From a virus, in the IMG/VR virus record IMGVR_UViG_3300005732_000002, positions 1 through 26,663 of that record: DNA of 26,663 nucleotides. One strand, written 5' to 3'. The position numbers were made by a program, and so were the translations under genes. Numbering within the stretch: position 1 is the stretch's first letter; each line of letters begins with the position of its first letter. Below the pieces are notes generated by a model. That model did no database searches and was not told where the DNA came from. It saw nothing but the letters and a program-made list of their open reading frames with translations. Positions 18,701-21,097 of the stretch are shown in pieces.

Positions 18701-19126
18701 ATGGACATTCAAACCGCAGTTTACACCGAAAACAACGCTTCAATTATTGTAAATGGTAGCATCACTGTCCCTGTGGCAGGGGGGAACCGCGATTACCAAG
18801 CAGTTCTTGCATGGGTTGCGGAGGGCAACACGATTGCCCCCTATGTTGCGCCACCTGCTCCATTTGCCGCCCTATCTCGACCGGCGTTTTTATTCATGGC
18901 AGCCAAAATAGGCATGACGGAAAGCGTCATTCTTGGCGTTATTGCGACCATGCCGGAAAGCACTCAAGAAGAACAAGACGCTAAAATGTTGGCAGAGATT
19001 GTTTTCAAAAATCAACAAAGCTTTGAAAGAGACAATGCGCTTTTGGTGTCTCTTGCCGCATCAGCGGGGCTAACTACTGAGCAAGTTGACGCAGCTTGGC
19101 GCACAGCAGAGGCAATTGAGTGGTGA
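18701..19126 (+). CDS. Small protein downstream of the fibre, possible fibre-associated protein or chaperone
   Basis: The gene starts two bases after the fibre stop, with GGAG upstream. Residues 1-50 are beta-rich (AVYTENNASIIVNGSITVPV, YQAVLAWVAEGNTIAPYV), and 55-141 are helical (RPAFLFMAAKIGMTES, QVDAAWRTAEAIEW). A beta head with a PF-type linker and a helical tail is a common layout for small proteins coded right after fibres and for tail-fibre assembly chaperones. No specific family is confirmed. Its stop lies one base before the next start codon. Confidence 0.6.
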   Translation: MDIQTAVYTENNASIIVNGSITVPVAGGNRDYQAVLAWVAEGNTIAPYVAPPAPFAALSRPAFLFMAAKIGMTESVILGVIATMPESTQEEQDAKMLAEIVFKNQQSFERDNALLVSLAASAGLTTEQVDAAWRTAEAIEW

Positions 19127-19127
19127 T

Positions 19128-20333
19128 ATGTTTGGATTCAACGAAGCCTGCAATTGGTGGTTTGAGGGCTTCTTTTTTTTAGGATCGTGGGCTCATTGTT
19201 GTTTGAACCACGATAAAATTTATGAATTAGGCTTTGACAAATTAGCCGGTGATTTTGAGTTAATGTTATGCGTTGGGAGTTCGGCGGCCCACCCTTTCGC
19301 CAGCCTTTTATATTGGGTTGTTGGCTTGTTGATGTTTTTAGCAACATCGCTTTTTGGGTGGGTTTGGTATATTAAGGCAAGAAAAGAACGAGAAGGCAAA
19401 ACAATGGCAAGACAACGCACCACAGAAAATGGCGTAAAGCTTTTAAAGGAGATCGAGGGAGTAGTGCACACTTGCTACCTTGATTCCGTTAACGTCGCAA
19501 CAATATATGTTGGGTTCACCAGACATTCGGCGGTGGTCCGCCGTGAGCTTGGCAAGTTAATCCCAGGCAAAACAAAAATCACAAAGGCGGAAGGTGACCG
19601 CATTCTAAAGCTTATGCTGGCTGAAGAATACGAGCCCCCCGTTGTTGCCGGTATGCCAAACGCGAAGCCATACGAGTTTGACGTTGGCACATCGGTTTGC
19701 TGGAATCTTGGCCCTAAATCAATGTCATGGAATTGGGCGAAGCTTTTCCGCGCGGGCAAGATCAAAGCCGCAGCGGACTATTTGTCGAAGAACTATAATA
19801 AAGCCGGTGGCCGCGTCATCAAAGGGCTAACCCGCCGTCGCGAGCGTGAGGCTCATCTGCTTGCAACTGGTGATTATGGGTTTGGAGGCGTCAAAGCCGC
19901 CGGTGCACCTCGAAAAGTCACCAGTCAGCCAAAAGCAGCCGACCCGGTTGTCGTCGCAGTTCAAGAGCTTTTGACAGGGCAAGGTTTTGACCCAGGCAAG
20001 ATTGACGGTTGGATGGGGCAAAAAACCAAAGCTGCAGTTTTAGCGTACCAGAAAACTCACCCGCATTTGACCAATGACGGGGTTATTGGGCCAGCCACAA
20101 TCGCGCAACTGCAGCGCGACAGTGAAGCCGTAAAAAAGGTGATCGAACGCACAACCAAAACAAGCAGCATTCCTGCAGTCATTGCAGGCGGGGCAGCGTA
20201 CGCGCAAGGCTTGCCGTGGGGCTACATTGCTGGCGGCGTCGTTTTACTCGCCCTGGCGTGGTTTATCTGGGCTAATCGCGATATTTTTACGCGGCGGTTC
20301 AACACTATTCGCGGGATAGAGGTTGAGGTTTGA
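19128..20333 (+). CDS. Composite lysis protein: PLA2-like head, GH24 lysozyme, peptidoglycan-binding domain, C-terminal membrane segment
   Basis: The 401-residue frame holds four parts. Residues 1-58 contain CCLNHDKIYELG, with an HD pair at 28-29 as in phospholipase A2-like phage proteins. Residues 59-82 are a membrane segment. Residues 93-255 are a GH24 lysozyme: E110, D119 and T125 keep the exact E-9-D-6-T spacing of T4 lysozyme, and KAGGRVIKGLTRRRERE is typical of the family. Residues about 270-325 form a peptidoglycan-binding domain (DGWMGQKTKAAVLAYQ, DGVIGPATIAQLQ). A second membrane segment lies at about 350-376. An ATG at 19404 (residue 93) has AGAAGG six bases upstream, so a lysozyme without the head may also be made. 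I start at 19128, directly after the previous stop. Confidence 0.8.
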   Translation: MFGFNEACNWWFEGFFFLGSWAHCCLNHDKIYELGFDKLAGDFELMLCVGSSAAHPFASLLYWVVGLLMFLATSLFGWVWYIKARKEREGKTMARQRTTENGVKLLKEIEGVVHTCYLDSVNVATIYVGFTRHSAVVRRELGKLIPGKTKITKAEGDRILKLMLAEEYEPPVVAGMPNAKPYEFDVGTSVCWNLGPKSMSWNWAKLFRAGKIKAAADYLSKNYNKAGGRVIKGLTRRREREAHLLATGDYGFGGVKAAGAPRKVTSQPKAADPVVVAVQELLTGQGFDPGKIDGWMGQKTKAAVLAYQKTHPHLTNDGVIGPATIAQLQRDSEAVKKVIERTTKTSSIPAVIAGGAAYAQGLPWGYIAGGVVLLALAWFIWANRDIFTRRFNTIRGIEVEV

Positions 20334-20563
20334 TGATCTTTGCAAAAATTAAGGGTTATTTGGCACTCGCAGGCGGGGCGGTTTTGGCCGTTGCCGCCGC
20401 TTTTGTTTGGGGCATATTCACAGGCAAAAATATACAGCGAGCGGATTCTATGCGAAAAGAGCTTAAGGATCGACAGTATATCGACAAAAAGCGCCACCAA
20501 ATTTCTCAAATGAGCGACGACGAACTTACAAAGGAGTTGGAAGGAAAATGGACAAGGCGCTAA
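20333..20563 (+). CDS. Inner-membrane spanin candidate (Rz-like)
   Basis: The 76-residue product has one membrane segment at residues 9-29, then a charged helical tail (KNIQRADSMRKELKDRQYID, DDELTKELEGKWTRR). An N-terminal anchor with a periplasmic helix is the plan of i-spanins, which join the o-spanin to fuse the inner and outer membranes in the last lysis step. It is shorter than lambda Rz (153 residues) but similar short forms occur in alphaproteobacterial phages. The ATG overlaps the endolysin stop. The 3' end overlaps the lipoprotein gene by 16 bases, as spanin pairs often do. Confidence 0.68.
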   Translation: MIFAKIKGYLALAGGAVLAVAAAFVWGIFTGKNIQRADSMRKELKDRQYIDKKRHQISQMSDDELTKELEGKWTRR

Positions 20564-20736
20564 AATTCTCGCTCATTATTTTGGTCGCGTTTTCTCTTTC
20601 AGCTTGCAAAACAACAAGCGCCGCGCTTTGTGGCGTTTTACCAATTACACTTGAAAAAGGTGAAGCCCGCCAGTTATCAACAACCACAAAACAGAAGATT
20701 TTGACGGCCAATGAAGCAGCTAAGGGCATTTGCTGA
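20548..20736 (+). CDS. Outer-membrane spanin lipoprotein candidate (Rz1-like)
   Basis: The 62-residue protein starts with MDKALK, a hydrophobic core and the lipobox LSAC at residues 17-20, so the mature 43-residue lipoprotein should begin at C20. The following KTTSA lacks the Asp at +2 that would retain it in the inner membrane, so outer-membrane sorting is expected. The start lies inside the i-spanin gene in another frame, after AAGGAGTTGGAAGGAAA. Size, lipobox and overlap with a small anchored helical protein make an o-spanin the most likely role. The mature part is not Pro-rich as in lambda Rz1. Confidence 0.7.
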   Translation: MDKALKFSLIILVAFSLSACKTTSAALCGVLPITLEKGEARQLSTTTKQKILTANEAAKGIC

Positions 20737-20755
20737 AAACTTTAAGGGGCGCGCC

Positions 20756-21097
20756 GTGGAATGGTTGAGCCATATACTAGGAGACAAGGCCGAGCTTGCA
20801 ACGGCGGGGCTCGCGGGCTCTACGGTTAGCGCGGCAGTCGATTGGCGCGGGGTAGCCGCAGCAATGCGGCGGATTGTTGTAGGTACGTTATGCGCCATGT
20901 TTCTTTCACCGCTTGGCCTGCCTCTTCTGCGGTGGCTTTTGAGCGGTGCAAAAATACCGGTTGAAAATGCAGCCGGTATGAGTGGATTTTTAATGGGCGT
21001 TCTTGGCGTTGTGTTTATCGAATACTTGTTGCGCGTCTTTCGCGTTAAGCTAAACTCAGTCACAGGAGCGACGGGGAAAGATGATAGTAAAGATTGA
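20756..21097 (+). CDS. Holin candidate
   Basis: The 113-residue product has a short helical start (EWLSHILGDKAELAT), two clear membrane segments (VVGTLCAMFLSPLGLPLLRWLL, given here as VGTLCAMFLSPLGLPLL, and FLMGVLGVVFIEYLLRVF), a weaker Gly/Ala-rich apolar stretch before them, and a charged tail (GKDDSKD). That fits a holin, which would form inner-membrane lesions to release or activate the endolysin. I use the GTG at 20756, six bases after AAGGGG, which avoids overlapping the lipoprotein gene. An ATG at 20711 would add 15 residues with a 26-base overlap and a poorer leader. Confidence 0.62.
   Translation: MEWLSHILGDKAELATAGLAGSTVSAAVDWRGVAAAMRRIVVGTLCAMFLSPLGLPLLRWLLSGAKIPVENAAGMSGFLMGVLGVVFIEYLLRVFRVKLNSVTGATGKDDSKD

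Follow-up and report, generated by a model that had tools for sequence, protein, structure and literature searches.

The window analyzed was the whole 26,663-base virus record IMGVR_UViG_3300005732_000002. Its plus strand contains an open frame of 401 codons at positions 19128 to 20333 with zero internal stops, and the two alternative frames contain 12 and 13 stops within 19128 to 19700. An earlier note, made from the letters alone, had described this frame as a stop-free chain of a cysteine-rich head, a membrane helix, a GH24 lysozyme, a peptidoglycan-binding domain, and a second membrane helix, and all of these parts were recovered by translation, Pfam comparison, and hydropathy. The CCLNHD motif noted for the head occupies residues 24 to 29, the T4-like catalytic spacing is that of E110, D119, and T125 (E-x8-D-x5-T), and the two hydrophobic helices correspond to hydropathy maxima of 1.97 (from residue 58) and 1.84 (from residue 362), computed over 19 residues. 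The frame and its surroundings contained the following features.

18701 to 19126, plus strand: upstream gene, phrog_6034 (unknown function)
19128 to 20333, plus strand: PLA2-like head, GH24 lysozyme, PG_binding_1, and C-terminal TMD in a single frame, 401 aa
19143 to 19277, plus strand: PLA2-like core, residues 6 to 50 (C8, C24-C25, H28-D29, Y32, D42, C48), phrog_6098, from profile, invariant columns, and model
19293 to 19397, plus strand: putative third helix of the PLA2-like fold and probable membrane anchor, residues 56 to 90, strongly hydrophobic, then KARKEREGK, from model, hydropathy, and PLA2 alignment
19391 to 19396, plus strand: Shine-Dalgarno-like AGAAGG before the internal ATG, from sequence (-4.9 kcal/mol)
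19404 to 19406, plus strand: internal ATG (M93), the start codon of stand-alone GH24 relatives
19446 to 19850, plus strand: GH24 lysozyme domain with catalytic E110, D119, and T125 (PF00959, E = 1.4e-15)
19947 to 20111, plus strand: PG_binding_1, peptidoglycan-binding domain (PF01471, E = 1.3e-10)
20166 to 20270, plus strand: C-terminal hydrophobic region with GLPW motif, from hydropathy and alignments
20333 to 20563, plus strand: i-spanin (Rz-like), phrog_1026 (E = 2e-10)
20548 to 20736, plus strand: o-spanin (Rz1-like lipoprotein), phrog_1275, overlapping the Rz gene (E = 1.4e-5)
20711 to 21097, plus strand: holin candidate, phrog_13918/phrog_2359

The spanin pair and the holin candidate downstream mark the region as a lysis cassette. 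The Rz-like and Rz1-like genes (20333 to 20736) overlap by 16 bases in different frames and form a two-gene spanin pair directly after the fused gene. The upstream phrog_6034 gene has relatives among the tail-fibre-assembly-like genes that lie ahead of the head in other contigs (neighbours in L027 and L037).

The catalytic domain of the gene is a member of GH24, with muramidase function predicted: Phage_lysozyme (PF00959) matched residues 107 to 241 with 58.2 bits against a Pfam cutoff of 22.3, and the E110/D119/T125 triad was unchanged across the aligned GH24 relatives. The PG_binding_1 match at residues 274 to 328 also exceeded its Pfam cutoff. The C-terminal region consists of a weak helix (approximately residues 347 to 361) followed by a strong helix (residues 361 to 381), and the region was kept in the alignments of relatives. 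Beside catalytic T125 (19500 to 19514), the lysozyme has TIYVG where relatives have TIGTG or similar, a Tyr taking the place of the first glycine of that conserved motif.

Residues 8 to 86 of the head matched positions 7 to 76 of the 78 in phrog_6098 (E = 2.5e-10), a family annotated as "unknown function." In total, 82 distinct head relatives were gathered via alignments, DNA patterns in viral contigs, and bacterial genomes. C8, C24, C25, H28, D29, and C48 were invariant among 54 aligned head sequences, the pattern-found members having been selected for part of this motif; in the first 19 sequences, which were picked without regard to D29, Y32, D42, or C48, those residues were likewise conserved, with few exceptions at Y32 and D42. 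The head thus carries the C-x-x-H-D-x-x-Y pattern of a catalytic helix and a second Asp (H28, D29, Y32, D42). The PHROG 6098 members of Pseudomonas phages USP_18, 8P, and ZRG1 and Aurantimonas phage AmM-1 have the same cysteines and CC..HD..Y and, like the window head, a hydrophobic third helix and a basic tail. They are separate genes of approximately 75 to 90 codons, usually in the tail module, whereas the window head is fused to an endolysin.

When the family profile was compared to PDB sequences, the top four were all secreted PLA2s (4aup, 7ygk, 8k1w, and 1faz; E = 0.012 to 0.15), and some family members matched PLA2G12 (best E = 2.3e-4) and Phospholip_A2_3 (best E = 0.016). The window head alone matched no Pfam PLA2 model; the PLA2-like nature proposed for it was supported by family profile and fold. 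Two structure models of the head were built, the second from a deeper head alignment, and the AlphaFold model (pLDDT 85.5) contained helices at residues 56 to 76 and 78 to 90. When heads and lysozymes were aligned jointly to the full frame, the second half of each head was placed wrongly, so this alignment was not used for folding. The three best structural matches of the head model were secreted PLA2s (Z = 7.1, 6.7, and 6.5, all below 8), superposed with rmsd values of 2.2, 2.3, and 2.9 over 68 to 74 residues; unrelated chains in the same comparison reached a Z of at most 4.2. Foldseek comparison to the PDB returned nothing significant for either head model, and the PLA2 signal came only from the second-look structural aligner and the sequence profiles. 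The best BFVD matches included a Siphoviridae protein annotated as phospholipase A2 and parvovirus-type capsid proteins. Taken together, these profiles and models make a PLA2 fold likely for the head family and support it well, with no one score decisive.

Secreted bacterial and fungal PLA2s (Phospholip_A2_3 and the same four PDB entries) share with the head family a D-x-C-T calcium-loop-like segment, the C.HD..Y helix, and a last helix ending in VR-FG. Compared to these enzymes, the head is shorter, is without a signal peptide, has an adjacent CC before HD, and has a third helix hydrophobic enough for membrane entry; its E6 replaces the calcium-loop Asp that is found at the aligned position in secreted PLA2s and in nearly all relatives. 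Cellular proteins with hydrophobic N termini from Alphaproteobacteria whole genomes (L123 and L124) also matched the head profile. Their motif is DGCSGG...CC..HD..Y...AD..L..CV...AVR.GG, and they may be cellular relatives of phrog_6098.

The segment first described as a separate membrane helix belongs to the head. The MF-GV-x-x-FGW pattern of the head family aligns with YYDAVRTFGWL, the last helix of PLA2 4aup. Since this alignment places the helix within the PLA2 fold, the head and the "membrane helix" form one domain and not two modules. A SAR endolysin starts with a weakly hydrophobic N-terminal helix able to exit the membrane; the window helix lies at residues 56 to 90, is strongly hydrophobic, and is part of the PLA2-like domain. 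Across the family, hydropathy of the third helix ranged from 0.4 to 2.6, with moderate values in many relatives and Arg often inside; membrane insertion is therefore likely in the window but not universal in the family. The PLA2-like fold might be catalytically dead and, with an effect like that of a SAR domain, anchor the N terminus of the endolysin in the membrane or signal its insertion, which would be consistent with E6 in place of the usual Asp, with the fully hydrophobic third helix of the window (peak, 1.97), and with the lack of a known function for phrog_6098. We regard this as quite unlikely, given that the head retains H28, D29, Y32, D42, and the four cysteines of the family, none of which would be required for anchoring, that the helix of many relatives is only moderately hydrophobic and often contains Arg, and that the enzymes already have C-terminal hydrophobic segments.

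At the junction, the ATG of residue 93 is preceded by AGAAGG, as had been noted, at a spacer of 7 nt. Pairing of AGAAGG with the anti-SD (-4.9 kcal/mol) was equaled by 17% of all ATGs in the window, so this start signal is unremarkable by itself. The start is credible because stand-alone relatives begin at the equivalent codon, and an internal start, as proposed in the earlier note, is probable on these grounds. These stand-alone GH24 endolysins with a C-terminal TMD (phrog_7), from Agrobacterium phage Rivra, Rhizobium phage RHph_X2_25, and Nostoc phage Nsp-JY10, are 46 to 48% identical to the window protein from approximately residue 90 to the end and have the triad, PG_binding_1, and the GLPW-TMD in common with it. 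Unlike the window gene, they begin at the M93-equivalent codon or one codon later, and no head was found before the lysozyme in any of the three phages. Likewise, none of 80 further lysozyme relatives in viral contigs had an in-frame head. One of these 80 (L037) has a divergent head gene close by in the same gene order: a tail fibre gene, a small tail-fibre-assembly-like gene, an 88-codon head with its own stop, approximately 350 nt, and the lysozyme. The L037 head matched the profile weakly (E = 0.08 in a genome search and, separately, 17 bits) and retains C...CC..HD...D..L..C and the hydrophobic helix. This separate arrangement could be that from which the window fusion arose.

Endolysins made as two polypeptides from one gene are known (PMC9430671). 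In those genes an in-frame internal start yields long and short products that share a stop; in the window gene, the internal ATG with its SD-like site would give such a pair. They belong to Gram-positive phages, and their short form is the C-terminal part of the endolysin, whereas the short form in the window would be a complete lysozyme.

In-frame fusion of a head to a wall enzyme was found in two other viral contigs, from unrelated phages. L014 encodes a head fused to a GH19 domain (378 aa; PF00182, E = 5e-5, just below the Pfam cutoff; phrog_181 endolysin, E = 2.4e-40), and L027 encodes a head fused to Phage_lysozyme2, a tail-lysozyme domain (373 aa; E = 2e-18). The fused heads matched phrog_6098 with E values of 5.5e-21 (L014) and 1.2e-16 (L027). 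In both genes, an internal ATG preceded by an SD-like site (-5.8 and -5.4 kcal/mol, respectively) also marks where the enzyme begins. Each of the three internal SDs was matched by 17 to 19% of the ATGs of its own locus, a joint chance of approximately 0.005 if independent. The internal M92 of L014 falls where separate GH19 endolysin genes of isolated phages begin, exactly so in AP-16-3 and to within one codon in Pam5. C-terminal hydrophobic segments are present in each of the three fused enzymes, and the separate enzymes of L037, L281, and L150 likewise end in a TMD. In L281 the head and GH19 genes overlap as ATGA, an intermediate state between separate and fused genes. Separate heads also adjoin Hydrolase_2, Amidase_2, muramidase, and GH24 genes. 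The fusion is real and recurrent, and the head-plus-wall-enzyme architecture joins known parts in a new way and has arisen at least three times. Among the cultured phages in the collection examined, none had the fusion, and scans of viral contigs with a single protein (head or whole frame) recovered no relatives; alignments were required. A head-to-GH19 match in Rhizobium phage RHph_I4 was discarded since it runs into a separately annotated upstream gene.

These contigs bear on whether the window fusion could be an artifact of sequencing or assembly, with a stop lost or a frameshift introduced between two adjacent genes. The record is a single-copy metagenomic contig, a near-identical record was looked for and none was found, the genes are apart in L037, and a stop could be masked by a single substitution or indel in the final codons of the head. 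Against this, the two other contigs show the architecture with different enzymes, and it is improbable that all three contigs independently acquired an error. The family-typical basic tail and the lysozyme start also lie in one frame with one residue between them, and the other frames are stop-free from 19376 to 19434, so that an indel there would still leave an overlap with the lysozyme. We consider an error in the window very unlikely. Overall, the reading in the earlier note was supported in part. The note had tied it to whether related genomes separate head and lysozyme and whether the fusion stems from such an error; related phages do have the genes apart (L037) or no head at all (Rivra, RHph_X2_25, and Nsp-JY10), but an error was not demonstrated.

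Stand-alone head relatives were found mostly in tail modules, after tail-fibre or DUF4376 genes and before the tail sheath. The earlier note stated that phages often encode a separate PLA2-like protein near the endolysin; outside the fusions the head was almost always a gene of its own, but its usual place is the tail module and only sometimes beside the endolysin. Wall-enzyme genes made up about 8 of 126 neighbours of the head and 4 of 121 distant genes, a weak enrichment in counts that are approximate, being partly hand-chosen where the gene caller took opposite-strand frames and covering the 25 commonest families. Placement of the PLA2-like gene between tail-fibre(-assembly) and tail-sheath genes was seen in many myovirus-like prophages (for example, L013, L016, L024, L031, L139, L164, L180, and L207). 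P2-like phages carry extra host-affecting genes in this interval.

The prevalence in tail modules and the weak enrichment near lysis genes make it a serious alternative that the head has no part in lysis and is instead a tail-module or moron gene (for example, for a virion-associated or superinfection-exclusion membrane protein), joined by chance loss of a stop to an endolysin whose working form starts at M93, as do the headless stand-alone lysozymes. We hold this explanation to be possible but unlikely. Independent fusions to three families of wall enzymes, all with C-terminal hydrophobic segments, argue against it, as does the single other in-frame extension found, that in L289, which leads to a lipoprotein-like tail; none led to a tail gene. 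In L289 (IMGVR_UViG_3300027985_000521, minus strand; frame ending near position 1458 of the reverse complement), the head continues into a lipobox-like segment, FIAGLLLFLAGC, and approximately 140 further residues, a second kind of fusion.

The explanation we favour, and consider somewhat more probable than its opposite, is that two lysis-time modules have become naturally fused in frame and that the gene probably gives two products, a doubly anchored long form and a lysozyme from M93. The modules would be a small membrane-embedded PLA2-like protein (phrog_6098) and a GH24 endolysin with a C-terminal TMD, which are adjacent in other phages. The long form, from 19128, would place its PLA2-like domain in the envelope and hold the lysozyme to the inner membrane at both ends, and the short form, from 19404, would have the C-terminal domain as its sole anchor. 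Disulfides and Ca2+ suggest that the PLA2-like part lies outside the inner membrane, and a cytoplasmic lysozyme is favoured because the basic KARKEREGK comes after the helix. The weak and strong C-terminal helices around GLPW may pair as a hairpin resembling the Enc34 two-helix domain (PMC8943055). During lysis, phospholipid would be hydrolyzed or disordered by the PLA2-like part as the tethered lysozyme cleaves the wall, the fused protein working next to an ordinary holin and Rz/Rz1 cassette. Catalysis, topology, the two products, and the role of the fused gene in lysis are what we infer from these features.

Phages may have merged lipid attack and wall attack into a single lysis protein on more than one occasion. 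The broader proposal, that phages of Gram-negative hosts repeatedly built a bifunctional, doubly anchored PLA2 plus wall enzyme in which the membrane-embedded PLA2 domain opens the membrane for the tethered wall enzyme and the internal start sets the ratio of double-acting to wall-only product, is more doubtful. To our knowledge, textbook phage lysis comprises a holin, an endolysin, and a spanin, with no lipid enzyme; if that proposal is true, phospholipid hydrolysis would be a dedicated lysis step next to these three.

Endolysins with a C-terminal TMD have been described. M4Lys lysed Escherichia coli without a holin and required its TMD (PMC7143992), and ORF39 of Enc34 has a C-terminal two-helix transmembrane domain (PMC8943055). 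In both and in the window gene, a catalytic domain is followed by a C-terminal transmembrane domain (in the window, hydropathy of 1.84 from residue 362). Theirs is of the PHA02564 family, without an N-terminal lipase-like domain, whereas that of the window gene is GH24; by its domain order the window gene is predicted to work like this type of endolysin but is not a member of it. The lipase domain would be one possible answer to how a TMD-tethered endolysin reaches the wall and, if active, could explain this for the C-terminal-TMD type in general. A phospholipase has been proposed to act in lysis in the cassette of phage WO (PMC9203015). That enzyme is patatin-like, is encoded by a separate gene, and was proposed for a peptidoglycan-free host, whereas the window head has a likely HD-type PLA2 fold. 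Among the papers searched, none described fusion of an HD-type PLA2 with an endolysin.

For phrog_6098, a widespread phage family with no assigned function, a PLA2 fold and active site are now likely, and its repeated fusion to wall enzymes provides a concrete, testable link to lysis. If active, the head fusion would define a lipid-plus-wall lysis enzyme. The two halves of the gene also differed in composition: G+C content was 41% in the head (19128 to 19403) and 53% in the lysozyme (19404 to 20333), compared to 50% in the window, a gap that may reflect separate origins of the halves or the hydrophobic codons of the head.
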